Source of the DNA: Struthio camelus
Taxonomy: Eukaryota > Chordata > Aves > Struthioniformes > Struthionidae
Assembly (NCBI RefSeq): GCF_040807025.1
Contig: NC_090942.1
Location: 194,922,247-194,986,246 of the forward strand
Direction of reading: 5' to 3'
Length of the DNA stretch: 64,000 nucleotides
Position 1 is the stretch's first letter, and the number at the start of each line of letters is the position of its first letter. The translations under genes and the position numbers were made by a program. This document shows positions 147 through 63,951 of the stretch, piece after piece. A model generated the notes under the pieces. It did not search any database. It worked only from the letters and a program-made list of their open reading frames with translations, and was not told the DNA's origin.

Positions 147-232
147 TCAGCAACATCAGGTATTTCAAAATGTTCGTTGAGCACTGTTTTTACTTTTCGG
201 TCTGACTTTTTAACCACCATTCCTTTGGAATT
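147..232 (-). CDS. C4-like exon 5: MG2 domain
   Basis: 86 nt after a TTAACAG acceptor, phase 0 in and phase 2 out at GTATGT. It encodes NSKGMVVKKSDRKVKTVLN, then EHFEIPDVAE. It aligns with the C4 block that starts N-S-H-G and ends I-P-D-I-S-E. The next exon (family pattern P-G-T/I-W-K-I) is not in the remaining 146 bases. Confidence 0.83.
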
Positions 233-3091
233 CTGTTAAGGGAGAGAAGAAGCAAATACAAATTTATGCACCAGATGCTGACCATTCTTGTTAGAAAGCT
301 CAAGTTCACACTCTAGTCCTAAGCAAACGAAAGAGTGCTCTATTTATTTTCTTACCTAATTATTCACATTTTACCCCTCCTCCATACTTGTGATATTGGC
401 CAAAACCACTAGAAATATCTCGCAATAGGTAAATGCCACTCCTTATTTAAAAAGGAACAACCACCATCTGCCAAAACAGTCCAGGACTTCTTCCACGCCC
501 CAGGAAGGGAAAGTGGAGGTGAACCTGAAACTATCTTGTAACATGGATCTGGTTCATAATTTTTACAGCTGTAGGATCAAGGGGCAGTGTGAGAGAGAGC
601 GAAAGAGGGAGAGGAGTCACAGCTATAGTCTTACTCTTGGATCTTTAGTATGATTTTTTCACAGTGCATGCGGTAAAGAAACACTTGGTAAAACTGTGTT
701 TTGTATACTCACTAGAACAGCTACTTGAATCGGATCATTTGTTGGCCTCATAGTATTGTCCAGAATGAAGATCCTGTATTTTACTGTTTAATAGAAGAAA
801 AAAAATGTATTTTTATATTCATTTATAGCCTTTCTATTCTCTTTCTAGAGAGTAACTATTACACGCTCTTAAGTGAGTTACTGAATTTTGGACAAAACAC
901 TTTCTTTACAAGAAAAGAAATTCAAGAAATTTCAAGCAGAGAATCTGCATTCTTCACTAGGCTTTGAGTGTTACATGAGTGACCAAATACATTAGCCTTT
1001 TTGAAGCAACTTCTGAAAAAGGTATGGGGAACTTCACCTCACTGCTGTATTCCCTCTGTGTTCAAGGACTGCAGCCAAATTCAGTAGCTCTTTTGACTTA
1101 TAAAGGTCAATTTTTTTAGGTTTTTCCCTCCTCGTATTTTTACTTAATTAGATTGTTAAAAGTAGTGAAACATTTACAGCCAAAAAGTGCAAAGGATGAT
1201 TATGGCAGGAGTTGCAAACAGAAGGAATAGGTTTTTTTTGCGAGGGAGGGAAGGGGCTCCCACTTCGTTTTATTTTGTTTTTCTGAGGATAGTCATTATT
1301 ATGTTTTCTGAAGATTTAGTTTGGCTCCTGTTAGAAGGAAAGAGAGAAAGACTCCCCAGCTCCTCTGGTGTTTTATGAGAGTGCCACGATGGGCAGTGCA
1401 GAGCCTGCAGAAGCCCTGGCTGCATAACGTGGGTTTAAAATCTAATCTAGCTCATGTATACGCAAATAGCTGAGGTTAAAAGGGAAGAGTCTTGATTAGA
1501 AAGGATCAAGCTATTCTTACTTTCTTTAACTGTGCCCTTGTAACATCTATTTTCAGTATCTGAAATGCAGTATTTGCGTGTTAACCTTTGGAAGTCGGTG
1601 TGTATATAGGTTTATCCGTCTGAATGAAAATGTAGCCTTTCTTGGAAGACAGGAGGATGCGAATATTTTGAACAGTCTCCTTGAAGAGCCCCCTGCTTTC
1701 GGTGACCAGCAGAACATATGGCAGCTTTCTCTTCTTGGACATATCCTTATGAACAGTTTCTGGATTGACCTGAAGACAACAAAAGGAGAAACCCTGTAGA
1801 ATCAGACATACAGCTGGTATCCTTGGAGTTACACCAGCTGGGGAGCAAAGAAATAAGTAAAACACTTAAATCTTTTATTAGCACCCTTCTACAGAAGATA
1901 ATCAATTATATCTTTCTTACTGGGTGAATATTTCTTTGTAAGCAGAAATATTATCTCTTTCTCCATGTTATGACATGGAACGGTGGGAAAGGACACATTT
2001 TCCTTTCTAATGGTAATAATTCAAGCCCAGCGACCTTTTATTCATTCTACAGGTATGTTAAATTTCAGTTGCCATGTCATTTGCTGGCTGTAGCTGCAGC
2101 CCATAATCCTGCATTTGCTAAAATCTTGATCATGAGATTGGAGCCTTACCTCCTGCAGGTATGATGTTTCTAAACATCCTGCTCAAAAGGAACCTGATTC
2201 CAACCTTCATCTCTCATTTTAGGAGTAATCAGAGCTAAATAAGGACTTACTTTGTGCTGTTTTTCAGTCAAATAGCTCAAACCAGTACTAAGCACTCCAC
2301 GGTTTCAAAGAACTGGGTCAAAAAAAAAAAAAAAGTCTATCAATTTGCAAGGTTACAGAAGCATTGCAGGCTGTGGGCTGAGAGACTACAGGTTTTTCAA
2401 CGTTTCCTCTATTTTGTAAAACAGCCAGCATGCCAAAGATGTGAATGTAGTCTTAATTTATGTGAATGTAGTCTTAATTTAAGTGATGCAGACCACCAAT
2501 TAAAAGAGAAAGAGAAATGATGAAGCCAAAAAATCAGTTCCAGGGATTAAACTGCCACTGTCCCACGAAAATGTATACGTATATGCATATAAAAAAAGCA
2601 CAGAGGAAAACAGATAAATTATAGGATCTTCAGGGATGAAAAGATGTTTCATCATCATATGACAAAACCTTGGGCTTGCTTGCTGGGCACAAAAGAGCAG
2701 TCACTGTCACCACTGAAATCATATTGGGCATTGTTTTATTGGCTGATTTGGTGGGCGGATTGCTGCTGCCACTGGAATTGGTGTTTTGTTATCTTTCTCT
2801 AATGATCAGTGCTGTCCCAAGATATTCCTGGCATAGATTATATGATTTATATTACCTGTTTAAAATTAGTACTTACACTACTATGATGGTTGACTCACCA
2901 TTATTTTTTTGATCTCTTGGTAGTTGTTCTCTTGGTTAAGGTTAAAGATGATCCTCTCTGATAAGAGCTCATTTTTTATCTCATCTTTGAAGTATGCAGT
3001 AACTTGGACAGGAGTCTGTGCTCCATGAACTTGAACTGTTACCGTCTCATGTGTGCCCAAATGCACCACATTTGGGGCAGTAATAAGAAAT
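147..3091 (-). CDS. Complement C4-like thioester protein gene, N-terminal exons (partial)
   Basis: Four exons (3091-2899, 1769-1586, 783-713, 232-147) join in frame and encode MG1 and the start of MG2 of the C3/C4/C5/alpha-2-macroglobulin superfamily. Complement members are secreted plasma proteins cleaved into a small anaphylatoxin and a large fragment; C3 and C4 attach to targets through a thioester. Marks seen: FLITAPNVVHLGTHETVTVQ at the MG1 start, GYIFIQTDKPIYTP at MG1/MG2, YRIFILDNTMRPTNDPI, and NSKGMVVKK followed by HFEIPDVAE. The last two align best by eye with C4. C5 or another C3-family paralogue is possible. The signal-peptide exon upstream of 3091 was not found, and the thioester, anaphylatoxin and C-terminal exons are off the left edge, so activity cannot be judged. 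It is transcribed in the same direction as FREM2, whose stop codon lies 23 kb upstream. Confidence 0.85.
233..712 (-). other. C4-like intron 4
   Basis: 480 nt between exons 4 and 5; nothing else recognised. Confidence 0.7.
713..783 (-). CDS. C4-like exon 4: MG2 domain
   Basis: 71 nt between ATTAAACAG and GTGAGT, phase 1 in and phase 0 out. It encodes VKYRIFILDNTMRPTNDPIQ then VAVL. Its length, phase and sequence match the small fourth exon of C3/C4-type genes as I recall them. It is too short for ORF scanning and was found by expected position. Confidence 0.85.
784..1585 (-). other. C4-like intron 3
   Basis: About 0.8 kb; T-rich, no repeat family or RNA gene recognised. Confidence 0.7.
1586..1769 (-). 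CDS. C4-like exon 3: end of MG1, start of MG2
   Basis: 184 nt, phase 0 in after TCTTCAG, phase 1 out at the weak donor GTTAAC. It encodes VNPETVHKDMSKKRKLPYVL, then FKETVQNIRILLSSKKGYIF and IQTDKPIYTPTSK. The GYIFIQTDKPIYTP block is the strongest family signature in the window. Its last base plus the next exon gives valine, as in the C4 pattern Q-R-V-R-Y. Confidence 0.9.
1770..2898 (-). other. C4-like intron 2
   Basis: About 1.1 kb; holds a short A tract near 2320 and a 21-nt tandem duplication at 2439-2480. Confidence 0.7.
2439..2480. repeat. Perfect 21-nt tandem duplication
   Basis: The unit ATGTGAATGTAGTCTTAATT(T) occurs twice back to back without mismatch inside an intron of the C4-like gene. 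It looks like a recent slippage or duplication event. Confidence 0.95.
2899..3091 (-). CDS. C4-like exon 2: MG1 domain, first part
   Basis: 193 nt. After a TTTTAG acceptor one base completes the first codon; it leaves in phase 0 at ATG then GTGAGT. It encodes FLITAPNVVHLGTHETVTVQ, then QTPVQVTAYFKDEI and NLNQENNYQEIKKIM. The pattern of a hydrophobic strand, P-x-V/I, H-L-G and E-x-V/T-V-x-V marks the first macroglobulin domain of C3/C4/C5. Calling it exon 2 assumes a separate signal-peptide exon, as in relatives. Confidence 0.85.
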
Positions 3092-5991: not shown

Positions 5992-6079
5992 GATGGTGCT
6001 TGCTGTGTGTTGGATAACAGGGAACAAAAGCTCATCAAAAATACCAGCCTTTCCATTGGAAACGTCTACAACGTTCGTG
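5992..6079 (-). other. Exon-shaped open segment, unassigned
   Basis: 88 nt flanked by a pyrimidine-rich stretch ending TTTGGCAG and a consensus GTAAGT donor. One frame is open: TNVVDVSNGKAGIFDELLFP then VIQHTASTI. Its exit phase (0) does not match C4-like exon 2 (needs phase 2), so it is not the signal-peptide exon in simple form. It could be a non-coding 5' exon, an exon of another gene, or chance. Confidence 0.25.
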
Positions 6080-26214: not shown

Positions 26215-26727
26215 TCAAACCTCCGAGCTGTCGCTGGTATAATTATATGGTAGCATCATTGGTTCATTGCTGCCTGACTCCTTTGCAGCTTCTTTCTTCT
26301 CAGAATTTTGTTTCTTTTTCAGCAGCAAAATTATGATTGCAATTAAGCAGATGGCAAGGAAAATCACAGCAGCTCCACCAATGATTGTGACTATGCCAAC
26401 CCCTGGGCTTTGGTTATTCAGTTCCCTGGGGAGAATGCCATTGACTACAACCTCCCTTTGAGGGACCTGTTTCTTGTTGGTGCGGTCTAGTGCTATGTGC
26501 TGAATGTTTGTTCCTCGTTTTTTTTCTACCCCAATATCTTTCGCAAATTCTGGAGCTCCTTCAGCTCCCCTTTTCTGACGCCTCTGTGTGGATGCTCCTG
26601 GTCTCCCACCACTGAAGACAGAGTGGTACCGGTGCTCCACACTCCTTTTGCCGATTCCACGGTTAGCATTCTCTTTTGAACGGACAGTGTATATTGTATG
26701 GACATACCACTCCCTACCCAAAGATAC
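26215..26727 (-). CDS. FREM2: FREM2 last coding exon: stalk, transmembrane helix, cytoplasmic tail
   Basis: 513 nt including TGA (26215-26217), entered in phase 0 after TTTCTAG. It begins [20 protein letters not shown], then has a basic stalk with RRQKR (26569-26583) and VEKKRG, a hydrophobic stretch of about 27 residues (26320-26400), KKK as stop-transfer and a tail of about 35 residues ending DSSEV. In mammals the FREM2 and FRAS1 tails bind GRIP1 PDZ domains, and S-E-V fits a class I ligand. The stalk is the least conserved part against remembered mammalian FREM2, as expected for a linker. Confidence 0.96.
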   Translation of the reverse strand, partial: VSLGREWYVHTIYTVRSKENANRGIGKRSVEHRYHSVFSGGRPGASTQRRQKRGAEGAPEFAKDIGVEKKRGTNIQHIALDRTNKKQVPQREVVVNGILPRELNNQSPGVGIVTIIGGAAVIFLAICLIAIIILLLKKKQNSEKKEAAKESGSNEPMMLPYNYTSDSSEV

Positions 26728-29700
26728 CTAGAAAGATACAACTTTTTGCTTTTAAACACACACATGCATGCAATGTGGACAGCAATATAAATAATATAAA
26801 TCAGTCATTGCTTTATATCGATTGCCTGGACAGTACTTTCAAGATCATGCACGGATAAAATCTATTACATGTTAATTTGCCCCAGAGGAGTCACTTTTTC
26901 TGCCATAATATTAAGAGAGGGTAGTTTGCATTCCCTTCTACGATCAGATTCTACGGCTTCTAGGTGTAGATGAAGAAGCCTTATCTTGGCATTTTTTTTG
27001 GCACTGCTAGTATCAATGGCCATACAGGTCTTTGGGAAAGAACCTTAGGTGCAGACAGGCTACAAAAGAAGGACACTCTGGGCCCAACCCTGCCAATCAT
27101 CTAGACTTTACATACTGTCACTAAAATTACATATTCCACAGTTGGCTCACACCCATCTCATTTTAAGAGAATACTTTAAATATCCACCTATAAACATCCT
27201 CCAAACTCCCAACATTTTCTTTTCATCAGAACATAAGCAATCATTGCCTTAGTATCCCTTTTTTGAGAGAGGTTAGCTCTAACACTTGTAAAACAAATAA
27301 ACAAACAAATCTAGAGAAGAGGCATACATACAATTCTCTTTCCCTTTGAACAGTTTTCCAGCTTCCAGCACTCAGTTGCTTAGGGACTTCCTACACTGAC
27401 GTCTGTGTCTTGATCATTTCCACTTAGCTTAGAATCACTGATGATCCTATTTTCCCTTGATTTGTCCTGTCTCTTCCCAATATGTTATAGATTTGGCCTC
27501 CACAAGATCCAGTAGGATTGTCTGAATACTGTTTTCTGTTTTTCTTAAAGCTACTGGCTTACAATTTCAGTGGTTGCATTCAAATTCTGTTATTGTGAGA
27601 AGCAACGAACACAGTTTCTACTTTACTCTTGGTTTTTCAATTCCTTTTCAGGACATTCTGTTGTTTCTTGACATTCTCATTCTTTTGACAGAATGAGGAG
27701 AAAAAAAAATTGCATTATTGGAGATGGATTCTCTAAATCAAAAACAAGCCTTTAGCTTCCTTTGGGACAAATTATGAAATGCTTTTTATGCTAGTAAGTA
27801 GGCTGTTCTCTTAAATGTTCTATTTTTCACAATGGGACTCTTAATAATACTAAAATGGCCAGAAGTAGGAATAAAGAGTCTTCAGGATTTCTTCCAGTAA
27901 TTTGCAATTCTGAGTTTTGCATGTAGTTTTGCAAATACTGAAGGGACAAAGAAACTACTGACTGGGCCATATAGCTCAAAGGGATGAAAGTAAACAGGTG
28001 AAAGATTATATGAAATTTAGAAATAGGTGTGCCCTTTACTTTTCTATTTCTAGGCTTTCTAGTGCTCAGATGTTTCGGAATGTGCAAGTTTGTGAGGAAA
28101 GGCTTGCACAGAAAATGCTGAATATCAATTAAATTTGGGTGAAGTACACTATAAATACTCACGGTTCTTTTATTTTTGGTCTTTGATAAGTGAGAAGGAA
28201 AGCAACAGAGACATGCTATGTGACACAAAACTTCAAAAGTCCTTAAAAGAAATGCATAAAGAATCATTTGTATCATTTCTTGTTCGACTATGGAGATAAT
28301 GGAAGAAAAGCATGCCATCTGCATAGGAATCTTCCATAAGTGCTTCAAATTTTACATCTAGAAAATTTTAAGCATTTATAATCCTTTTTAACTGCCAATG
28401 AAATCAAAAGGAATCTTCCTATCTCCTTCAATATGACTTACAGTTAACTCTTAACACTTCCTGTGCGGGACTGTTCTTGAGAAAGAGTTTTTGGTGCAGT
28501 ATTTCAGGAACTAACCTACAGAAAACTTACCTGAAATAGGGGAGATGAATCCATTTTAAACCCATCAGAGCCTGGTTGTTTAACTAAAGGAATTGCTTCA
28601 GGGTCATCTATTGCAAGTCTCGCATTAAAAAGCACATTTCCAAAGCTTGTGGCTTGCGTCTCTGGCTGAGCTTTGTCCTGCATGGTCATGGAGATAAAAA
28701 AAAAAAAAATTGTAAAAGGCACATTCGTTTCTTCCAGGAAAAAAAAGTTCTAATATTTATACAAAATATATCTTTTCTAGGAGTGTAATTAACATGTGCT
28801 ATGATATGTAATCCAATGTAATACCATGAGAAAAACGTATGAGAAGCAACTGTGGTCACCTCTGACTTGTACTAGCTAACATTTTTTTTAGAAATAGAAA
28901 GGGGAAAAAAATCTAGAGAACAATCATAGCCACATTTCTAAAATGAAAAAATACATAAATATCACCTGAAATAAAAGTCAGAAGAGACATATTCATACAA
29001 CTAATTAAGGCAACTAGGAGGGATTCACCTTACCCAACTTTAAAAGTTAGGCATCTGGTCTCTAGTCACAGAATCACAGAATGGTTTAGGTTGGAAGGGA
29101 CCTCCGGAGATCATCTAGTCCAAGTGCCCTGCTCAAGCAGGGTCCTCTAGAGCATGTTGCACAGGATCGCATCCAGGCGGGTTTTGAGTATCTCCAGCGA
29201 AGGAGACTCCACTACCTCTCTGGGCAACCTCTTCCAATGCTCTGTCACCCTCACAGTGAAGACGTTTTTTCTCAGGTTTAGGTGGAACTTCCTGTGCTTC
29301 AGTTTCTGCCCATTGCCTCTTGTCCTGTTGCTGGGCACCACGGGAGAAGAGACTGGCCTCATCCTCTCGACACCCCCCCTTCAGACACCTGTACACGTTG
29401 ATGAGATCGCCTCTCATCTTCTCTTCTCCAGACTGAACAGGCCCAGCTCTCGCAGCCTTTCTTCAGAGGAGAGATGTTCCAGTCCCCTAATCATCTTTGT
29501 AGCCCTCCGCTGGACTCTCTCCATACAAACGTAAACTTTTAGTCACATAATTACCATGGTGAAGACAGAGCTTGGACACACTAGCACTTCAAGTCATGAA
29601 GATGCTTTCTACCAAGGCAGCAGTCCCTTTTCCCACAGCAGCATAGTACAACGCAAAAAGCATTCTTAGTGGAAATGTGCTGTTCTTCCATTAACACCAA

Positions 29701-30291: not shown

Positions 30292-33200
30292 CAAGTGCAC
30301 CTTCTCAGAATTAGAAAACTTACCACAATCTTAAATCTGTACAGAAGGGATGGAGAATCAGCAAGGCAACCATATTCAGTGTTGGATGGATTATACTTGG
30401 GTACATATCCATCAGCTCCTGTGCACAGAAAAACCTTCTCGATGCTACAGTAGAAGGAATCACCCAGATTCTGCACTGGATCCACCATCACTCGACCATA
30501 TATGGTATCACCTGGAAATAGTTCACATCCTATTACACTGTTATATTTAGCACAGTATTGAGGCCAAATTAATAAACCCAGTGAAGAAGCTCAGTGCACT
30601 GTAATGTGGCTGCAGTTTCTGGCCATCTCAAAGGCCCAAGCTGAAAGTCCAGTCTTAAAGGTCCAATCTGCCTACAGCTATATACAAGGGCTACTTGTGA
30701 CACTTAGCTAAACAGATTTTACTGTAAGGGGTTGCCAAAGGTCATGATCAGAGTGTACCCTCTTCCACACTCTCTGGGTCACAGGATAGCAGTAGGAGGC
30801 CATTCACTGCTACTATAACCTAAAGTAAATTCTGGGGCTTCTGGGATCTTCATTCAAAAAGTGACTTAAAGCTACATTCTCTACCCCGTCTACACCAGAC
30901 CAGGATGCAGGTTTTGGTCTTCTGACAATACGTCTTGTTGAAGAGATGTGCTTTTTTATGTCATAGAACCCTATTCAGACAGCGTAACAGTTTGGTTACA
31001 CTTGGCCAGATTGGCAGCATTTAATATAGTAAAATTGACGTGAACATTATGAAAAGTCACAGAGATATTTTCTGAGACTTTGCTCCTTATTGTATGATTG
31101 CATTTTTGCTGCCTGATAAGATTTACGAAAAACATGCTTGCAAGGCCTACACAAATAACCTGGGCCAGTACTATACAGGCAGGAAAAGTATACCATGTGT
31201 AGTGGTCAAACACGGACAACAGAAAGTGCTGAGGAAGGCTGAGAATTTGGAGAAAGAAAGAAAGAAGCGTGGCATTGCTTTTATAACTATTTGTAGCAAC
31301 TGTAGACTTTGAGAGAGGTCAGGTCTCTGCTGTTCAAGAGACCAGGCAAACAAGTCACAAAAGACAATTGTGGATTCAAGGTCCTGATATTCTAAACAGG
31401 CAAATGAGGCACATGAGGAAAACAATAATTGAAGTGATTGCTTAAGGTCATGTAAGAAATCACTGATAGATGTATCAACTGAATCCAGGCTTCAGTTCAC
31501 TGTTTCACACAAGTTTTTTTTAAAAACGACCTCTTCTGGGTCTGAACATAGTATTAAGCAAGCAGGAATTCTGAAAGTTCATCTTAGTTTTGACTTGATT
31601 TCTGTTGGGCATATTTATCTTCTTCACACACAATAAAAAGACTTTAATAGTTTCTTAGCAACTATGGATGTTCTTAGTATCAGCTAAACTAATGTTTATA
31701 AAGTGCTCAGCATATGAGAAGTGGCACTAGTATTGTAACTTTCAGAGACAACAGTTTCAATGAAGATTGGTCAACAACTCTGATACAAATTGCAAAGTAG
31801 GAAAGACAAACACAAAAGAACACAAGCAGCAAGCCAAACCTTTACTCCTAGCTTGCTTTGATGGAAACAGGATCTTGACAGTGTGAACTACATTAAATGT
31901 CTATGGTCTTGCACAATTATACCTTCTGCAAAAGCGACATCACTTTCTTGCCCAAAGCCCATGGAGCCATCAGATAGCCACAGGGTCTTCTTTGAGAGGA
32001 GAAACATCTGGGTATTCAAGCTGAACTCAGCAGCCACGGGGTCACTGACCTAAAACAACAGCGTAAGGCTCTTCAACATGCGTTCTTTAATCACTCTTAA
32101 AATACAACATAATCTTCCAGCGTACTCTGTTAATCAGTTTTGCATATCTAGATGTAATAATACAGTTTAAATTAAAAAAGAGTTCTTTGCATTGGACATA
32201 TATTGCTACAAATTCTTCATGCATACAGTCTTCTACAAGGGGATGACTGGCTGAGTAGATGAGGGGAGAGCAGTGGATGTTGTCTGCCTTGACTTCAGTA
32301 AGGCTTTTGACACTGTCTCCCAGCCTTGTTCAACATATTGATTGATGACCTGGGTGAAGGGACAGAGTGCACTCTCACCAAGTTTGCTGATGATACTAAA
32401 CTGGAAGGAGTGGCTGAAACACCAGAGAGCTGTGCTGCCGTTCAGAGGGACACAGAATCACAGAATGCTTCAGGTTGGAAGAGATCTCCGGAGATCATCT
32501 AGTCCAAGCGCCCTGCTCAAGCAGGGTCCTCTAGAGCATGTTGCACAGGATCGCATCCAGGCGGGTTTTGAGTATCTCCAGGGAAGGAGACTCCACGACC
32601 TCTCTCAGGGCAACCTGGTCCAGCGCTCCGTCACCCTCACAGTCAAGAATTTTTTCTTCGTGCTCAGATGGAACTTCCTGTGTTTCAGTTTGTGCCTGTT
32701 GCATCTCATCCTGTCGCTGGGCACCACTGGAGATATGGACACAGGGGAACCTCATGACGTTCAACAAAGGCACGTGCAGGGTCCTGACCTAGGGAGGAAT
32801 AACCCCATGCCCCCCAGCTGTGGGCTGACCTGCTGGAAAGAGAAGGACCTGGGTGTCCTGGTGGACAACAAGTTAAGCATGAGGCAGCAATGTGCCCTTG
32901 TGGCCAAGAAGGCCAATGGGATCCTGGGCTGCATGAGGAAGAGTGTTGCCAGCAAGTCAAGGGAGACTCTTGAGTAGAGACTCCCCTCTACTCAGCCCTG
33001 GTGAGGCCCTGTCTGGAGTGGTGGATCCAGTTCTGGGCTCCCCAGTACAAGAGAGACATGGCCCTACTGGAGAGAGTCCAGCGGAGGGCTACCAAGATGA
33101 TTAGGGGACTGGAGCATGTCTCCTCTGAAGAAAGGCTGCGAGAGCTGGGCCTGTTGAGCCTGGAGAAGAGAAGACTGAGAGGGGATCTCATCAATGTGTA

Positions 33201-36200
33201 TAAGTATCTGAAGGGGGGGTGTCGAGAGGATGGGGTCAGACTCTTCTCCGTGGTGTCCAGCGACAGGATGAGATGCAACAGGCACAAACTGAAGCACAGG
33301 AAGTTCCATCCGAACATGAGGAAAAAATTCTTGACTGTGAGGGTGACGGAGCACTGGAACAGGTTGCCCTGAGGGAGGTCGTGAAGTCTCCTTCGCTGGA
33401 GATACTCAAAACCCGCCTGGATGCGATCCTGGGCAACCTGCTCTAGAGGACCCTGCTTGAGCAGGGAGATTGGACTAGATGACCTCCAGAGGTCCCTTCC
33501 ACCCTGGGCCATTCTGTGATGCTGTGAACCCTTGGGTCATTTGTTCCTATGATACCTGATGAGATTTAAGGCTAGTTTCTTCCTACACCATGTTTTTCCA
33601 AATTCCAGCTATCTACTTTCTGTTTTCCGCTCAGTATCTTGTCTCCTAACTCACCATAACCTCTTTTTTCTATCCCATTTACTTCCGTACACACAAATTC
33701 CATCTTTGCTTCTGATCCTCTGCCAATTTTTGAAAAGTACATATTATTGAGGACTTATAAATAAGTATCAGTTCTTCTGATGTGGTACAGGTTATCTGAG
33801 ATACAGATCATATTTGTGAAAACACATTAAAACATTGCTAATATTTATCTCTTTTGAATTTGACACAATTTTCTATAGTTCATCCTTGATTATTTTACAA
33901 GAATACAATAAATCAATCCTATCGGTAGCAGGTTCTCAGTGGGCCTTATACTTCATAAACATAAGTTAGAAAGCAACCTATATAGGGACAGAACATAACA
34001 AAGGCAAAGAAAATAGTAGATGGAAGTGCTGGGGAGAGCTCAGAGTTCAAAAAGATGCAGTATACCTGAGGAAACAATCTGAAACAGGCACATATGCAAA
34101 AAAAAAAAAAAAAAAAAAAGGAAAGAAAGAATAAGAGAACAAGAGACTGCTAAAGAATCACTCTCAAATAAAAAATGCTGAATATATATGTACATATATA
34201 CATATGTTTATATATAAAAAAGTATATATGTGTACCGAAAGACAGGAAAATATAAAGGAAACATTCTTGTAGGCTCTTGGACAAGGGGTTGATGGAATGA
34301 GATATAACAATACCAACAGAAACTATTGCTACAAGCTATTCAGCTGACATGCTTATTCTTCTTCAAAACCCTTTTCCACAGCAGAGGCCCCAAAATATAG
34401 AGTAATAAGATTTGGCAACAAGAATATACAGCTGAAAAGTTTTTATAGACTCACTGCTACTCTTTGCAGAGAGGGACCCTATCCCCACAGCCTTTTCACA
34501 GAAATAATAATAAAAAAATACATTCTAATCTGTTTGGACTGCTTCCTTCTAAATGCCCAGATTCAGGCTATCAGATTACAAGTCCCACAGTTTCAAACAC
34601 CTGACAGACACAGCTGTTTTCCAGCTGCAGTTTTGAAAGAAAATCAAGCATGGCCTGACCAAACTCTTCCTTTGCAGAATAAATGTTTACTGAATAGGAA
34701 ACAAAAAGTGCATATTCAGCTAAAGGCACTAGACTTCAGCCATGCAGTTTACAACAATGGTAAGAGCAGTGGCCTGGGTAAATATTTTGCAAAAAGCTGT
34801 GAATACGTCTCTTAGATGTCCTACTTTAAGTTACTATTTTAATTTCAGTTTCATATGTGAGTTTCCATGCTACCAGCGGCTGACTCATACTGGCAATTTA
34901 TTACTGCAATTCAAATATACTTATTTTCATGCGCAGTTGAGGCATTTAAAGAGTTCTTAGAAACATAATAGATAAGGACTTGTTGAGCGAAAAGAGAGCA
35001 CTGTCAACTCATTCTGCTTATTTCTATGCCCATCAACTACTTTGCATATGGATCATTAGGGATGATATAGATCATTCATAGTGGGCATCCTCAGCTCCAT
35101 GGGGACCACAGTGCATGAGATACTTGGTACTTCAAGAAGCAGAGAGTCCTGGAGATCTGCCCATCCCAGTGCAGCAGGGATCCTGATTACGGAGTTATGG
35201 GAAATAGTTATAGGCATTTAGAGATAGGAGACATTGAAAGGAGTGGGATAAAGCAGAGCTGGGAGGTTGAATGCTGGGCATGTACAAGACTTCTCAGAAT
35301 GAGGATAGTGATAGTACAATACTCAACAGTGTTTCAGGCTACCTTCCCTCTTCAGGGCCCACAGAAAGAGGACAAGGGAGACGGGCATATATGTTAAAGG
35401 AAATGACAAAATAAAATCTCCAGAGGGAGACCCCAAAATATATTTTCTTCTTGATATCTGCTTCTTAAAATGGTCACTCACTCATACACAGTGAAAGTTG
35501 TGAAGGAAGTTCGAATGAAAAGTTTCCCAGAGAATGAAAACCCTCATATTAAAAAGCCCAAGGAGATAATACAGTAGAGCAGCTGGAGCACTAGATTGAG
35601 AACCAGAAGAAATAACTCCTATCCTGTCCCATCATTTCATCATTTGACATACAGGCAAAGTCATTTTGATCTAGTTGTGACATCTGCATTCACTGATTTC
35701 AGTGGGAGCGTGCAAGGTTTCAGGTGTTTCCTAGTCTAAGGCTCAGTGTCACGGTCTGACCTTTCATGTTCACATCTCTGCTTTTCTTTTTCATTTCTAA
35801 AACACGGATACCAAAGCTCATTCAGTTTTGTAGAATGCCAAGAAATCTTACAGGTCAAGTGCTGGATATTGCCTCTATAATTTGTGCTACTGTACTGCTG
35901 CTAGAGCTGATTTTTTGGGATCTGCTTTAACTCTATACAATTTTTCAATTTATGATTAAAGGGAACAATATCAATGGCCACAGAATTTCTCAGTTAATTT
36001 TTGTTTGAGTATCTCAAGAAAAATAGCTGGCATTGAATCAAAAATTGCCAGTTATAGCAAGTAGCTGGCCACAGTCCTTGGTGGTTATGACACCGTTATA
36101 ACTTTGCAACTTATTCCTAATTTGAGTTTGTGTATCTGAAACTTCCAGATACTTGGTACTACTAAAGCTTTATCTGAGATAATGACTCCTCCTCTAGTAT

Positions 36201-39200: not shown

Positions 39201-42200
39201 TACTACCAAAACGTAGATTAAGCTTACCAGAATGGGACATCACAAACAAACCATGAAACCGGGCTTCAGTCTTGAAGTTGACAACCAAGCGCCCCTCTTC
39301 ACTGATACGCATGCTGGTTGGGTAGAGGGAACCTGGCAGCAGAAGGCAATCCACAGAGATCATTTCACTTGCAAATGACAAATAAGTCGCACTTTTACTA
39401 ACAACAGCACTCTTCTACTTCCCCTTGTCCTATCAGCTATGTAGAAAGGGTCCTGCTGATATCTTTTGGGATGACTCAGTATTATTCTCAAGCAAGAATT
39501 GACATAGAGGGGTGTAGAGTTTTCAGGAGTGCTTCATTCTTCCAAGGCATATACAAAACTTCCCTGCAAAGTCACGGCTTAACATATATTATCAAGGACC
39601 CACACAGATGCTCTGCTAGACTGAGGAAAGTCCGCAGCACAGTATATATTTGGATTTGAAGCTCCATCTAAACCTGAGGAAAAACTTCTTTCCTGTGAGG
39701 GTGACAGAGCATTGGAACAGGTTGCCCAGAGAGGTTGTGGAGTCTCCTTCGCTGGAGATATTCAAAACCCATCTGGATGTGATTCTGTGCAACCTGCTCT
39801 AGAGGACCCTGCTTGAGCAAGGAGGTTGGACTAGATGATCTCCAGAGGTCCCTTCCAACCTAAACCATTTTGTGATTCTGTGATTTGGACAATGCACGGT
39901 CTGCTACCAGGTGCTTCTGTTGAGGGGAAAACGCTTTTGTTTTCAATAGGTATTCAATTTGACTCCTACAAATAAAAGCTACTTCAGAGATGCTCTTGAT
40001 CATTGCCTCCCTATATATTGTCCAAGGGCAGCACTCAGCAGCATTGTGGCAGTAGCTGTCAACTATGACTTCCATGGTAGTCTGACTGTGGGTGCCTGAC
40101 TCTGTGAAACTCATTCTGATAATTTCTGGCATGAAGCTCGCCCAAAATATGGACTCCAAATTTCAAGTTACAAGGTTTGTTTATATGTCAAAAGTGGTAT
40201 ATTGCTGTAGCTTGCATCCAAGTCCTTTTTTCTCTAGAACCGTTCAAAGTTCCAGAGTTCAGGCACTTCCTACAATGCTCTTTTACTGAAAGCCAGTGAT
40301 GTGGCATGCTCCTGTGTGCAAGGGCAAGAAGAAAACAGGAATGCTCCTTCACGGATGTGTTAGAAATCTGACACATTCACCAATGGGAATGTGTACCACC
40401 TGTAAAAACTCATCTGCACCAAATACCTATATTGGTCCATTAGAAATTAAAGACCTTGCCTGCATAGCAATTTTAAATATAATTTTTGTAGGACAACTAT
40501 ATGTAACAAGTGCTATGGAAATAAACTGAAAAGTAGCTTACCCCTCCCTGCTCTTGGGGAACAGCTGTCCCTTGTACAAGGCATGGCAGGGAAAAGTGTT
40601 CACTCTATACTGCCCAAATCAGATTAGGGTATGTTGGAGGTCTATCCTCTACTACTGTGTTTACCATGTGTTCTCTGCTTGCCATTTTCAAAGGGAGCTA
40701 TTAATGTTCAGCATCTCCTGATGCTGGCCATCAGCTCCTTAAACAGAGAAAAAAAATTAAAGTGTTAAAGTCAGTAAAATGGGGACACATATGCACCACA
40801 CCACTGCTGAGACCCAGGATTAGCCCAGCTGTTATGCGATGACTAGTATGTCATATGATTTGTGGCATATGGTTTATTCTTCATGCATGGCACGGCATGT
40901 GCTTATTTTCTTATGCAACGCAGATTCCCCCTGCAACTCCTCATTTCCTACTCTTAACATGAGGACAGGAATAGTATCACAATGACTTCTGTAGTTCACA
41001 TATAGAGTATGGAGAAACAAAATTGTTTTTATGCTCACACTGTCGTCCCAACATTGTTAAGTGTACATACTTAATCATAGCTGCCTCCTATATTCTACCT
41101 GAGGTTGGGACAAATATGGAATACCTGAAGCTTAATGAGAGGCACTCCCAAGTAGATTCACACATACAGAACAAAGAAGCTTATAGCTTTAACTACATAT
41201 TTTATTTTTTCCTAAATAGCAGTATGTCACTGTTTTTCTAAAAATATGTTACCTTTTGGCAAAGATAAATTCTATAAATATATAGCTTTACCTGTACAAT
41301 CCTAAATATTTGTCAACAGTATCTATTACACTTACAGAATGTTTTATAGTTCACTACTCTAACACATGGGACAGCTTATACCCATTATATACTTGCTTCT
41401 TTTGAATGTTTCAAAATTAATATGTTTAAAGTAACAAGTTTCTGAGATTGTATGTTCATGGCCAGGCAAAAGTAATAGATATCTCAGAAAAGTTTCAATT
41501 TTTCTCATTAAAAGGCAAACACCTTATGTGACAACAGAATATGAATATATAATGAATATTGAGGTAATGTCGAAGAAAGAAGTAGAAGAAATGTTTTAAT
41601 TTTTGCATGCATACTTGAAACATAAGGAGGCAGTTATCTTTCCTTGAAATAAAAGAACTATTGTTAGCTTAACATGGTTTTCATAAACACCACAACAGAG
41701 AATCTTGAGCACCAGGCAATGACAGGTTGTTTGCAACTAATAATAAATGATATAAAACCTTTTTGTAGTATTAGAATGATTGAAAAATCATCCTTCTGTG
41801 TGCAAATCATACTCTTAGTAATGGAACAAGGAGTCGACACAAAGAAATCCAACACCTACCTTGGAGCTCTGCTTCAGGTGGGCTACCAATCCCATCCTTC
41901 CACAGGATGGCAGTGTCATACACAAAAGTCAGCCGGAGCTCTGACTGTAGGTCAAAATGCTGCCAGCCTCCCACACCCACCGGGGAGTGGAAAACATAAG
42001 AGACATACAAGGGAACTCTCAGGGTGACATAGGACTGCACTAGGTTGAGAACCTATAAAAAGGAAAATGGTTTGTTTAGGTTAGCGGTAGCGAAAGGCAG
42101 AATTCTGTAGGTAATCCTAACGCTCAAGAAAAACAAGACAGAACTTGAACTAACTATTGTGACTGAATCAAATTCTCTCATTTTCCAAATTACAAATGAA

Positions 42201-60200: not shown

Positions 60201-63200
60201 AGAAGCCATTCGCTTAAGAAATTACAAGTTCACAGTCATACCCTATGGATAGGCGCTTCTGCAGAGTAATGATAAACTTTGCAAACGTTCCTAAGATAGC
60301 ACTCACACATTTTTCCTTCAGTTACTTGAACTGCAGGTTTTTTAGGAGGAGTCACAATTCCTTTGCAAATATCTTCACATATAGCTAATATTCCACAAAT
60401 AATTTGGCTGTTGTACACCACATGGGGCCGTGTCCACACCAGCATCAGACACTGGAAAATAACCTTGTGCTGGAAAATAACCTCAGAGCAGGGAGCAGGT
60501 TATGTCCAGCTCTCCGATGGTCAGAGAGACTGTAATGGAAATATGGGATGTATAACTTTGCTCTATAACATGCGAGATGGAGCTGTAATTCAGGATCTGC
60601 TACAGAGATCACAAAAGAATAACATAAAACAATAACTGGCACATTTTCCAAAAGACTGATGGTCTGGATCCCATCTTATGCCTTTACCAGAGGTGCATGC
60701 AAATTATTTTGCAGCCACCTCTTCTTAAGATAGGATGGGTTGATGGAGCCAGGTTTCTTATATTTGCGCCTGGAGTGCAGTTACACTATCGCTATAGCTA
60801 TACATGTACAAATATGATGGTCCGAGTGGCTGCTGAACCCAACTGAACAGCTAATTTACACAACCCACCTGAAGTTCTTTTCAAGTCTCATAACTAGATG
60901 AGGTAACCTTTCCCTAGTGTTTTGTTCTCCTTGTTGTCTGTCATCATTTTTTTCCTTATTGCAAAATACATTTCTAATCATATACTGACATTTCTGTCCT
61001 ACGTAGGTCGTAGTCTTATAATTCCTTTATCTTGTTTTACCTTTTCTCTCTCAAATGTTACTTTACTATTGATTGTAATTATTGGGTCAATCAACTACTG
61101 TTTACAGGATAATGCTATAAATACAATCTCCTCTTCAAATTTCAGTATCGAAGTTTTATGATCATAGAGTAGCGCATTTCCAATTATTATAAATCTATCA
61201 TTTATTAGTATAGCTGTTGCTCAAACTACAGTACTTATAAGGGCTGTTAAGACTCCATTCTTAATTACAGAGAGAACATTGCACATCCAGTTTTTGGGCA
61301 TTAGCTTTGAAAGCAATGGAATCCTGTTCCTATGGCCTTTTGACTTTGAACAGAAAAATATATTAATGGATGTGGTAAAGTATTCTATTCAAAAAGTTAT
61401 TTCATTCTTCAAATATTCTACTATACTCATGAATAAAAAAAAAAATAGGATGTGATACCTATCGGAGTGAAAGTAGGGGCATTTTCTTACCTTCTGATAT
61501 AGGGTGATAGTCTTCTCCGGAAGTAGCAGACCCATCCTTTGTATGAACTCTCACAACAGAAACCTTGGAACTGTCTCCCAGACGAAGCACTGGGATTTTT
61601 ACCACTGCTACTTGCCTTGAGTCCTTTGGTTCATTCACACTAAATTTAGTCTCACCAAACTTAATAATAGCTTCTGTAATTAGAGGAAAAATGTTTTTAG
61701 AGAAATACACAAACGGACTTCGAGATGCCAATTTGAAAGTAACAAAATAATTTCTTACTGTCTGCATCATCCTGAATCTTTATCAGGGTCTCATTTTGTT
61801 CACCAACAGAAGCACCAAAGAAAGAATCACTTCTTGGAGTGCCAAGGACCAGACGTAGTTCTTCCTCTTCTTCATGGAAAGTATCATCCATAAGCACAAG
61901 TGTGCAAGGCTTCTCAGTCTCACCTGCAATCATTATGAAGGTAACATCATGCAGAACTAGGGTGTTCTTTGCTGTATTACAGCACTTCTCTCCAAGTTCA
62001 TGGACCCACAGGCTGCTTCTGCTCTAGTTGGTCACCCACAAATCTACGTGTCTAAACATATTGAATGTTCTGACACTCTAGGAATAAGGAACTTAGGTCT
62101 TCTACAAGACAAATAAAAGTTGTAAGTGATATGCAGAGTATCTGGCTCCCAACGTGATGCTTAGTGGTTTCATCATCAGGAGAATGATTCCTACATCCCT
62201 GACAAAAAGAAGAGCACAGGGTACAAGAGACATGGGGCCAATTTACAATATTTTTCCATCACTATGCATGTAATAGTGATAAAGGCTCCTCAAGATGAAG
62301 GGAACGCAAAGAAGCAGGCCTAAGCTGAGGCACAGGTGTCTTCCCTTCATATGGACCTTGTGCTTTCTGCAGTGAAGAATTTGGTATTTGCCATCTACAT
62401 CTATGCAACATCTGGAATACTGACTGTGCTCATTATCTGAAGTGTTTTTTCCCCCTACAGAAACTAAATTATCCATTAAGAGAAAAAAAATCCAAAATAT
62501 TTATCCTGCTCATTTTTACAGGGGAAACATGAAGAAGACTGTACTGAAACTGCTGCATCTTAAATAGACTTGAGGAGTTTAGGGAAACAAGATATGATCC
62601 CAATATACCTCTTTGCTGGAGAAACAGTAGGGTGACACTAGAAGAAAAGAGGAAAAAAATCACCTCCTAATGGGCCTGTGTCTATTAATCCTGAAACGTG
62701 GGACTCTGGTTCCTGGTTGTGCAGAAGCAATAGCAAAGGCATGAAGTACATGATAGCATCAAAGCCTGAGGCCAGTTCCAAATGAAAGCAGATAGAACAA
62801 CTCACTCTTCAAAAGAGTTCATGCATACATGGTATATGTACATGCAAATGTGAAGCTTACCATTTCTGTGATAAGGGCATACCAAGGATTACAAACAGAT
62901 GACAATACTTGTTCAGGGCTTTGAAAAATATTGTGTGTGTAAACTGAACAGGTAAAAACACTCAGCTGTCTTCTGCAAAAACAGAGAGCATCAGGCAGTA
63001 TTCTTTCAAGTCAGAGTCACCTCGTTTATATGTTTTTCATCTCTAATGTGACAGCTCTGCAGAGAAGGACCTGGGAGTCCTGGTGGACAGCAAGTTAAGC
63101 ATGAGGCAGCAGTGTGCCCTTGTGGCCAAGAAGGCCAATGGGATCCTGGGCTGCATGAGGAAGAGAGTTGCCAGCAGGTCGAGGGAGGTGATCCTGCCCC

Positions 63201-63951
63201 TCTACTCAGCCCTTGCAGGGGGGAGGCCACACCTGGAGTACTGTGTCCAGTTCTGGGCTCCCCAGTACAAGAGAGACATGGCACTCCTGGAAAGAGTCCA
63301 GCGGAGGGCTACAAAGATGATCAGGGGACTGGAGCATGTCTCCTCTGAAGAAAGGCTGCGAGAGCTGGGCCTGTTGAGCCTGGAGAAGAGAAGACTGAGA
63401 GGGGATCTCATCAATGTGTACAAGTATCTGAAGGGGGGGGTGTCGAGAGGATGAGGCCAGTCTCTTCTCCCGTGGTGCCCAGCAACAGGACAAGAGGCAA
63501 TGGGCAGAAACTGAACACAGGAAGTTCCATCTGAACCTGAGGCAAAACTTCTTCACTGTGAGGGTGACTGAGCACTGGAAGAGGTTGCCCAGAGAGGTTG
63601 TGGAGTCTCCTTCCCTGGAGATACTCAAAACCTGCCCGGATGTGATCCTGGGAAATATGCTCTAGCTGACCCTGCTTGAGCAGGGAGGTTGGACTAGATG
63701 ATCTCCAGAGGTCCCTTAATAGACTAGAGGCTTCTAAAATAACAGGAGCTTACCAGGAAGAAATGTGACGATGGAACTGTCAGTATTAGGACGTTCTTCG
63801 AAGTCCATCATTACCTGGGCTGAACCTTGTCTAGTATAGCATCTCACAGTAGATGTGTATCGGATATCCCCACTCCTGTATATCATGGCAGAAATCTGTC
63901 CATCATTTTCATTGCCTACATATACAGGTTCTTTAAACTGCATCTTAGGCA
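26215..63951 (-). CDS. FREM2: FREM2, 3' part of gene (16 exons, 5' end outside window)
   Basis: FREM2 is a single-pass membrane protein of the Fraser complex (FRAS1, FREM1, FREM2). The complex is laid down under epithelial basement membranes and holds epidermis to dermis during development; loss in mammals gives Fraser syndrome or blebbing phenotypes. Sixteen minus-strand exons join with GT/AG sites and continuous phase into 1045 full codons plus TGA. Order: Calx-beta repeats 4 and 5 (first about 210 residues), a long conserved ectodomain, a basic RRQKR site, a hydrophobic helix, a lysine-rich stop-transfer and a tail ending SSEV. The human protein is about 3170 residues, so this is roughly its last third; numbering these as exons 9-24 is inferred from the human 24-exon gene. 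FRAS1 is the main alternative, but exon-by-exon similarity to remembered FREM2 is much stronger. No frameshift or premature stop was seen. Confidence 0.95.
26320..26400 (-). other. FREM2: FREM2 transmembrane segment
   Basis: About 27 uncharged residues rich in Ile, Val, Ala and Leu, from VGIVTIIGG to IIILLL, preceded by [10 protein letters not shown] and followed by KKKQ. This orients the N-terminal mass outside the cell and the SSEV tail inside. Confidence 0.9.
26569..26583 (-). other. FREM2: Basic RRQKR motif, likely proprotein-convertase cleavage site
   Basis: Arg-Arg-Gln-Lys-Arg followed by Gly lies about 60 residues before the membrane helix and fits the furin consensus R-X-K/R-R. Convertase processing of Fraser complex proteins is supported by genetics in fish. 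That this bird site is cut is inferred. Confidence 0.6.
26728..28530 (-). other. FREM2: FREM2 intron before last exon
   Basis: 1.8 kb. It holds a 173-codon open frame on the gene strand (27827-28348) that resembles no family and is probably chance. Confidence 0.8.
28531..28677 (-). CDS. FREM2: FREM2 exon, membrane-proximal ectodomain
   Basis: 147 nt, phase 0 at both ends; acceptor ATGCAG, donor GTAAG. It encodes [40 protein letters not shown] and MDSSPLFQ. Confidence 0.95.
29066..29526 (-). mobile_element. CR1 LINE 3' fragment
   Basis: About 460 bases running 5' to 3' on the minus strand, so in the sense of FREM2. From 29526 down it reads the terminal CR1 ORF2 region (arginine/glutamate-rich RERAG-type block), then the 3' end with AGAGGTCCCTTCCAACCT-like sequence and TTCTGTGATTCTGTGA tail. 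5'-truncated and frameshifted, so not mobile. Confidence 0.93.
30247..30291. repeat. AAAT tetranucleotide microsatellite
   Basis: Eleven uninterrupted AATA units in a FREM2 intron about 30 bases past the splice donor of the exon at 30324. Confidence 0.97.
30324..30511 (-). CDS. FREM2: FREM2 exon, membrane-proximal ectodomain
   Basis: 188 nt, phase 1 in (TTCCAG) and phase 0 out (GTAAG). It encodes [40 protein letters not shown] and [17 protein letters not shown], with three cysteines. An AAAT microsatellite starts about 30 bases beyond its donor. Confidence 0.96.
30512..31922 (-). other. FREM2: FREM2 intron
   Basis: 1.4 kb of unique sequence; no repeat or hidden exon seen. Confidence 0.8.
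31923..32049 (-). CDS. FREM2: FREM2 exon, membrane-proximal ectodomain
   Basis: 127 nt, phase 0 in (TTTTAG) and phase 1 out (donor GTATAA). It encodes [20 protein letters not shown], then [20 protein letters not shown]. It has no useful in-frame ATG at its start, so it is easily missed. The nested CR1 cluster begins about 180 bases upstream in the same intron. Confidence 0.92.
32233..33527 (+). mobile_element. CR1 LINE, internally deleted, interrupted by a second CR1
   Basis: Sense-strand CR1 starting in the reverse transcriptase region ([11 protein letters not shown]), jumping by internal deletion to the DDL-type block and running to the ATTCTGTG tail at 33527. It is antisense to FREM2. An opposite-strand CR1 sits inside it (32456-32736). 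Core catalytic sequence is missing and the frame is broken, so it is dead. Confidence 0.92.
32456..32736 (-). mobile_element. Nested CR1 3' fragment inside an older CR1
   Basis: Minus-strand CR1 3' end of about 280 bases splitting the host CR1 between its ...CAGAGGGAC and ...GGGGAACCTCATGA blocks. GGACACAG occurs at both edges (32448-32455 and 32737-32744), a possible 8-bp target-site duplication. Confidence 0.88.
34098..34119. repeat. Poly-A run
   Basis: Twenty-two consecutive A followed by GGAAAGAAAGAA; no retrotransposon body recognised directly before it. Confidence 0.95.
34183..34237. repeat. TATA/TGTA-rich low-complexity tract
   Basis: Alternating purine-pyrimidine stretch of TATATGTACATATATACATA type, partly self-complementary. 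Confidence 0.85.
37689..37823 (-). CDS. FREM2: FREM2 exon, membrane-proximal ectodomain
   Basis: 135 nt, phase 0 at both ends; acceptor CTCCAG, donor CAG then GTACCA, the same weak donor hexamer as the exon at 50650. It encodes [39 protein letters not shown] and QQ. Confidence 0.94.
37913..38040 (-). CDS. FREM2: FREM2 exon, membrane-proximal ectodomain
   Basis: 128 nt, phase 1 in (TTTCTAG) and phase 0 out (GTAAAA). It encodes [20 protein letters not shown], then [20 protein letters not shown]. Only 89 nt of intron separate it from the next exon. Confidence 0.94.
38041..39227 (-). other. FREM2: FREM2 intron
   Basis: 1.2 kb of unique sequence; nothing recognised. Confidence 0.8.
39228..39332 (-). 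CDS. FREM2: FREM2 exon, membrane-proximal ectodomain
   Basis: 105 nt, phase 1 in (TGCCAG) and phase 1 out (GTAAGC). It encodes [20 protein letters not shown] and [11 protein letters not shown]. Short, but its place and phase are fixed by the exons on both sides. Confidence 0.94.
39333..41859 (-). other. FREM2: FREM2 intron
   Basis: 2.5 kb with one CR1 end (39656-39885); the rest is unique. Confidence 0.85.
39656..39885 (+). mobile_element. CR1 LINE 3' end
   Basis: About 230 bases: the block GAGGGTGACAGAGCATTGGA, the block GGAGTCTCCTTCGCTGGAGA, then AGAGGTCCCTTCCAACCT and TGTGATTCTGTGAT. Antisense to FREM2. Confidence 0.93.
41860..42052 (-). CDS. FREM2: FREM2 exon, membrane-proximal ectodomain
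   Basis: 193 nt, phase 0 in (TTTATAG) and phase 1 out (GTAGGT). It encodes [39 protein letters not shown] and [12 protein letters not shown]. It follows the longest FREM2 intron in the window (about 8.6 kb). Confidence 0.95.
46051..46134. repeat. Compound GA then GTGC/GCGT microsatellite
   Basis: A purine-only (GA) tract runs directly into alternating GTGCGTGTGCGTGCGCGTGT sequence. The two halves favour triplex/H-DNA and Z-DNA respectively. Confidence 0.93.
46781..46796. repeat. Poly-T run
   Basis: Sixteen consecutive T within the long FREM2 intron. Confidence 0.9.
50193..50210. repeat. Poly-T run
   Basis: Eighteen consecutive T within the long FREM2 intron. Confidence 0.9.
50650..50981 (-). 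CDS. FREM2: FREM2 exon, largest internal exon in the window
   Basis: 332 nt, phase 1 in after TTTTTAG and phase 0 out at CAG followed by the weak donor GTACCA. It encodes [60 protein letters not shown] and [11 protein letters not shown]. This is among the most conserved FREM2 segments and resembles the last CSPG/NG2-like fold of the family. Confidence 0.96.
50982..52264 (-). other. FREM2: FREM2 intron
   Basis: 1.3 kb of AT-rich unique sequence; nothing recognised. Confidence 0.8.
52265..52396 (-). CDS. FREM2: FREM2 exon, membrane-proximal ectodomain
   Basis: 132 nt, phase 1 in and phase 1 out; acceptor ATTAG, donor GTATGA. It encodes [16 protein letters not shown] and [19 protein letters not shown], ending MPHIDG. 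It joins in frame to the next exon, which begins with methionine-leucine-proline. Confidence 0.93.
52856..53065 (-). mobile_element. Degraded CR1 LINE fragment
   Basis: Antisense CR1 order is kept: TCATAGTGTCATAAACTAAT, GAGTTGGAAGGGA, AGTCATCTGATACAACCCTA, TTCCTCTAAGGATGGAGAAT. It is more diverged than the other copies, hence older. Confidence 0.75.
54395..54440. repeat. GA-rich low-complexity tract
   Basis: Imperfect GAGA/GAAA repeat of about 45 bases. Confidence 0.85.
55077..55380 (-). CDS. FREM2: FREM2 exon, membrane-proximal ectodomain
   Basis: 304 nt, phase 0 in (CTGCAG) and phase 1 out (GTAAG). It encodes [36 protein letters not shown] and [14 protein letters not shown]. The WLVSAP and AARAVN pattern resembles a fibronectin-III-like sandwich, an inference from spacing only. 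It holds three cysteines within the conserved stretch. Confidence 0.95.
55381..56873 (-). other. FREM2: FREM2 intron
   Basis: 1.5 kb of unique AT-rich sequence; nothing recognised. Confidence 0.8.
56874..57032 (-). CDS. FREM2: FREM2 exon after Calx-beta 5
   Basis: 159 nt, phase 0 to phase 0, acceptor TTTCAG and donor GTGAGT. It encodes [19 protein letters not shown], the final strand of the fifth Calx-beta repeat, then a linker ending GYPVICIT that opens the FREM2-type juxtamembrane ectodomain. Confidence 0.94.
57178..57240 (-). mobile_element. Probable degraded CR1 3' end
   Basis: ATCAGAGAATAACTGAGGCT followed by GAAAGGGCCTGTGGAGATCT resembles the antisense CR1 end. Short and diverged. Confidence 0.4.
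57261..57284. repeat. 24-nt perfect palindrome of GT-TA-CA repeats
   Basis: GTGTGT, then twelve alternating TA bases, then ACACAC. The strand equals its own reverse complement, so it can form a cruciform or hairpin. Confidence 0.93.
58082..58212 (-). CDS. FREM2: FREM2 exon: Calx-beta domain 5, second half
   Basis: 131 nt. A TTTTTAG acceptor with two bases completes the glutamate codon left by the previous exon; it leaves in phase 0 at GTAAAT. It encodes [20 protein letters not shown] then [15 protein letters not shown]. It has no in-frame ATG near its start, so simple ORF scans miss it; phase and order show it is required. Confidence 0.93.
58213..61490 (-). other. FREM2: FREM2 intron
   Basis: 3.3 kb. 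Phase across the intron is already continuous, so no exon is missing. A 163-codon plus-strand open frame (59778-60269) resembles no known family. Confidence 0.8.
61491..61673 (-). CDS. FREM2: FREM2 exon: Calx-beta domain 5, first half
   Basis: 183 nt, phase 1 to phase 1, between TTACAG and GTAAG. It encodes [16 protein letters not shown], then [19 protein letters not shown]. The G-S/T-A-x-x-G-x-D-Y motif is the hallmark of Calx-beta domains, and the aspartates are likely calcium ligands. Confidence 0.96.
61759..61923 (-). CDS. FREM2: FREM2 exon: Calx-beta domain 4, second half
   Basis: 165 nt, phase 1 to phase 1, between TTGCAG and GTAAG. It begins [14 protein letters not shown] and has the acidic run [15 protein letters not shown] typical of the C-terminal strands of Calx-beta repeats, then [16 protein letters not shown]. 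Only 85 nt of intron separate it from the next exon. Confidence 0.95.
61924..63753 (-). other. FREM2: FREM2 intron
   Basis: 1.8 kb, more than a third of it CR1 (63052-63717). Confidence 0.85.
63052..63717 (+). mobile_element. CR1 LINE 3' part, tail missing
   Basis: Longest uninterrupted CR1 here, about 665 bases, antisense to FREM2. It reads the C-terminal ORF2 region ([34 protein letters not shown]) up to a G8 run that shifts the frame, and stops at AGAGGTCCCTTA without the octamer tail. It closely matches the CR1 at 32.8-33.5 kb, so the two belong to the same subfamily. Confidence 0.95.
63754..63951 (-). CDS. FREM2: FREM2 exon: Calx-beta domain 4, first half
   Basis: 198 nt; enters after a CCCAG acceptor with two bases completing a codon and leaves at a GTAAG donor after one base of a glycine codon. 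It encodes [17 protein letters not shown] and then [20 protein letters not shown], the first strands of a Calx-beta fold with its acidic DFEERPNTD turn. A CR1 copy ends about 36 bases beyond the donor. Confidence 0.93.

Follow-up and report, generated by a model that had tools for sequence, protein, structure and literature searches.

The closest described system is the second C4 gene of chicken. In the available sections of Najafpour et al. 2020 (PMC7768046), this type, named C4.2, is found in chicken, spotted gar, zebrafish, cavefish, and salmon, and has Asp replacing the catalytic His. Chicken C4.2 is located on chromosome 1, with FREM2 among its neighbours, and chicken C4.1 on chromosome 16. 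The legend of Figure 5 in the same paper lists FREM2, TRPC4, POSTN, STOML3, LHFPL6, COG6, FOXO1, and others in the compared regions. The neighbourhood is similar in chicken, gar, and zebrafish, and the matching region of human chromosome 13 is described in those sections as being without C4.2. The published tree clusters the avian chromosome-1 type, represented by chicken, with ray-finned fish C4.2. Coelacanth and shark C4 lean to the C4.2 cluster, yet they are C4.1 by synteny (PMC7768046). Another study, in the portion available, describes a shark C4 of the Asp type as MHC-linked (PMC10751288). Owing to this MHC-linked shark Asp C4 and to the tree position of coelacanth and shark, Asp alone does not define the C4.2 lineage.

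A review by Kaufman 2021 (PMC8813856, available in part) attributes plasma expression and C4A-like specificity to the non-MHC C4 of chicken, as unpublished work, and cites Nonaka et al. 2017 for similar conclusions. The available text of both papers has C4.2 retained by birds but absent from mammals (PMC7768046, PMC8813856). In chicken, amine preference (C4A-like) and hydroxyl preference (C4B-like) are assigned to two old genes on different chromosomes, whereas in mammals one old C4 gene is argued to have been lost and the pair re-made by duplication (PMC8813856). Human C4A is argued there to be a later copy of the MHC gene in which the Asp specificity was acquired anew.

The ostrich locus was studied in a window of 64,000 nucleotides (C1:194922247-194986246) of a Struthio camelus assembly (G000) with 1.45 Gb in 262 contigs. 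The exons at its left end almost certainly form the 5′ part of an intact C4 of the non-MHC kind (C4.2, 'D-type'), next to a FREM2-like gene on chromosome 1 of the ostrich. The window carries the first five of the 41 exons of this intact second C4 gene (Table 1). The gene is already annotated in NCBI, and its type is already published as C4.2.

Table 1. Positions in the window of the first ostrich C4 exons and of the neighbouring coding exon.
Feature	Position	Strand	Description and evidence
Exon 1	5992..6056	(-)	Start codon and signal peptide MERLVFLMSFCSLLSNTQQAPS, donor GTAAGT; exact match to P0007
Exon 2, 193 bp	2899..3091	(-)	MG1; splice sites, Pfam MG1, exact P0007 match
Exon 3, 184 bp	1586..1769	(-)	End of MG1 and start of MG2; splice sites, Pfam, exact P0007 match
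Exon 4, 71 bp	713..783	(-)	MG2; splice sites, Pfam, exact P0007 match
Exon 5, 86 bp	147..232	(-)	MG2; splice sites, Pfam, exact P0007 match
FREM2-like last coding exon	open frame 26218..26727	(-)	Transmembrane tail; upstream of C4, same strand

A preliminary description of the window had reported four phase-consistent exons encoding MG1 and MG2. All four are exact, as confirmed by splice sites, Pfam, and the database protein P0007, and only the signal-peptide exon 1 at 6056-5992 had been missed. This exon was one of seven candidates, and the choice was settled by its exact match to P0007. Exons 2-5 have GT/AG splice sites and compatible phases, all on the minus strand. The translation of the five window exons equals residues 1-199 of P0007 with zero differences.

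The remainder of the gene was rebuilt by spliced alignment from 60 kb left of the window, guided first by a human C4A sequence and then by P0007 itself. A further 36 exons were found in this direction, down to G000:C1:194880518. The complete ostrich C4 gene spans 47.8 kb of the minus strand, from C1:194928302 to 194880518. It starts with ATG, ends with TGA, has GT-AG borders in 40/40 introns, and contains no internal stops. The leftward assembly of the coding sequence envisaged in the preliminary description gave 41 exons without disruption, and the disrupting mutations considered there as evidence against its reading are absent from the remaining exons. The 1687-aa product matches 'complement C4-A isoform X1 [Struthio camelus]' (P0007) of NCBI at every residue. 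A comparison of P0007 with its own genome gave 29 matches, comprising 27 in the ostrich C4 gene, one on contig C26, and one on contig C31.

The homologue search scored 7992 proteins, with 513 over the threshold, and the 120 among the matches listed are all bird-named. They show 72-98% identity to the ostrich protein, and several are encoded on contigs of ~200 Mb. Motifs were counted in these 120 listed proteins of >1500 aa, which include the ostrich itself and a few species twice; six short proteins (P0001-P0006) were excluded from the counts. The thioester, anaphylatoxin cysteines, and processing sites proposed earlier as marks of a C4 are all present. The thioester GCAEQT at residue 992 occurs in 120/120 listed bird proteins, as does each of the six anaphylatoxin cysteines (residues 686, 687, 700, 713, 720, and 721). 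The processing site RRQKRS at 659 has the same six letters in 96/120 and SRRKRD at 1396 in 95/120, and the listed variants of both are still basic. Gene structure, motifs, and wide presence in birds were thus observed directly for ostrich C4.

The catalytic position (HHPVLD, residue 1108) is Asp in 116 of the 120 listed proteins, Asn in two, Glu in one, and His in one. The corresponding motif of human C4A is PCPVLD, and that of human C4B is LSPVIH. The Asp of the ostrich protein is C4A-like, or 'D-type'. The departures from Asp are P0016, P0035, P0098, and P0118, with Glu in Crypturellus undulatus, Asn in Phaenicophaeus curvirostris and Catharus ustulatus, and His in Notiomystis cincta. Among the listed C4-like homologues, P0109 of Anhinga anhinga (74% identity) is named 'CO3 protein' in NCBI, which is probably a naming slip.

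The four joined exons (2-5) match Pfam MG1 at 4.7e-17 and MG2 at 1e-10. Their best match in the PDB is human C4 (1.9e-21), followed by C3 (3.5e-17), C5 (2.4e-11), A2M (1.8e-5), and CD109 (6.8e-5). The best match to human C4, together with the MG1 and MG2 domains, indicates that the four exons are not due to chance; chance open reading frames are ruled out by the splice sites, the homology, and the exact database record. The full-length P0007 scores 1173 bits against C4-A, 931 against C3, 676 against C5, 327 against CD109, and 281 against A2M. The earlier reading of C4 as the closest family member by eye agrees with both comparisons. Membership of the A2M/CD109 group, the kinship that would have spoken against this reading, is ruled out by the PDB scores of the exons and of the full protein, which lie nearer C4.

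Pfam finds MG1-4, A2M_BRD, ANATO, A2M, TED, A2M_recep, CUB_C, and NTR in P0007, that is, the C3/C4/C5 domain order from MG1 to NTR including ANATO and TED. The C4A/B CUB_C model reaches 34.8 bits with a cut-off of 27. The C4_MG1 model gives 20.1 bits on the four joined exons, against a cut-off of 21.4, whereas the generic MG1 model is above its cut-off. C4_MG1 is absent from the Pfam listing of the full P0007, and the quail protein P0001 is listed with it.

Two trees were built, with human C4A and with ostrich C3 and C5 predicted from contigs C31 and C20. In the first, which has 12 rows including a CD109-like piece, human C4A is joined to C3 and C5 with 91/96 support. Taken at face value, this tree speaks against the C4 reading. 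It was set aside because the CD109-like fragment (316 residues) filled 19% of the columns and sat on an extreme branch of 8 to 10. The second tree, with 11 rows and neither A2M nor CD109, sets human C4A and the bird genes apart from C3/C5 at 91/96, and this fork is unstarred by the tree program. Both trees carry a long-branch warning for human C4A, C3, and C5. The sequence-based assignment to C4 draws less on the trees than on the scores and motifs.

The gene had been described as lying immediately downstream of FREM2. A FREM2-like gene does lie upstream of C4 on the same strand, but ~20 kb, viewed as open reading frame lists, separate its last coding exon (frame end 26218) from C4 exon 1. Calx-beta exons are found by Pfam further right of the 26218-26727 frame; together with the transmembrane tail, they fit FREM2 and the published neighbourhood. 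The frame of the last exon has 259 homologues, none of them named FREM2 among the 120 listed; its tentative naming as FREM2-like follows the Calx-beta exons and the published synteny.

Chicken C4.2 shares the catalytic Asp and C4 layout with the ostrich gene, and FREM2 is named in print for its neighbourhood. The chicken protein P0089 is 76.6% identical to the ostrich protein over its full length, and the differences found are those of species divergence. Ray-finned fish C4.2 belongs in print to the same clade and has a similar neighbourhood, with deep divergence. Human MHC C4 (C4.1; C4A/C4B) shares the domain order, processing sites, anaphylatoxin, and thioester with ostrich C4, and human C4A is 40.5% identical to it. 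MHC C4 differs in its chromosomal setting and by an older split. The suggestion of a C4 paralogue outside the MHC, kept in birds and lost from mammals, agrees with the available text of PMC7768046 and PMC8813856. Retention in birds or sauropsids had also been proposed; the bird part stands, whereas a sauropsid novelty does not, as the gene is shared with ray-finned fish (PMC7768046, in the sections available).

An ordinary MHC C4 (C4.1) could instead have moved to chromosome 1, in which case the ostrich gene would not be an ancient paralogue. The lack of a visible second C4 in the ostrich assembly is in line with such a move, as is the Asp of human C4A and of the MHC-linked shark C4 (PMC10751288, in the portion available). 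However, residues 1-199 of ostrich C4 are 45.7% identical to the N-terminus of a paddlefish C4-B-like protein (P0002) and 32.7% identical to human C4A, so that the paddlefish is nearer than human despite the earlier split of ray-finned fish. These values are as would be expected if the split of the gene from MHC C4 predates the divergence of ray-finned fish and tetrapods. Furthermore, chicken P0089 is on a contig of 196,242,913 bases, and chicken C4.1 is on chromosome 16 (PMC7768046, as above). A moved C4.1 is therefore very improbable. The probability that the gene is a pseudogene, or that two chromosomes were wrongly joined in assembly, as the preliminary description had considered, is negligible, as no support for either was found, the 41-exon gene is intact, the 120 listed proteins have 72-98% identity with several on chromosome-sized contigs of ~200 Mb, and chicken C4.2 lies on chromosome 1 in a neighbourhood similar to that of gar and zebrafish (PMC7768046, as above).

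The ostrich gene, read as C4.2, represents an intact palaeognath copy of this type, already present in NCBI, and is of relevance to the evolution of classical-pathway complement. Its product most likely works as plasma C4. The pro-protein, which has a predicted signal peptide, would be cut at RRQKR/S and SRRKR/D to give the beta, alpha, and gamma chains. C1s or MASP-2 would cleave after the anaphylatoxin (VGLAR/) and expose the GCAEQT thioester, by which C4b would be covalently bound to the target. C4b and C2a would then form a C3 convertase. With Asp at the catalytic position, amino groups are predicted to be the preferred targets, as they are for human C4A. By analogy with the reports on chicken, the same function, including the cleavages, may be expected in ostrich.

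Searches of the ostrich assembly with the A2M domain (PF00207, 16 matches) and the thioester domain (PF07678, 52 matches) revealed no second C4 of the MHC type (C4.1). The loci found are a cluster at 88.87-89.29 Mb of C1, loci on contigs C25, C26, C3, C20, and C31, and the ostrich C4 gene. Spliced predictions and their motifs identify the C20 locus as C5 and the C31 locus as complement C3. The loci on contigs C25 and C26 appear by eye to be A2M-like, and that on contig C3 CD109-like. The C1 cluster is presumably A2M-like, as read from its position. The missing C4.1 is possibly an assembly gap; bird assemblies often lack parts of the MHC region. It is also conceivable, though rather unlikely, that the ancient non-MHC C4 is the only one left in ostrich, and perhaps in other palaeognaths, after loss of the MHC gene. 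If this were true, all C4 activity of the ostrich classical and lectin pathways would rest on a paralogue lost by mammals.

Within the C1 cluster, eight A2M-domain matches are located at C1:88867940-89286090 on both strands, one of them with an internal TAG, and they are assumed to fit a tandem A2M/ovostatin family. In the window, frames at 29136-29490, 32342-33536, 39671-39859, and 63009-63749 resemble by eye, in their motif, the reverse transcriptase of a CR1-type LINE or its antisense.
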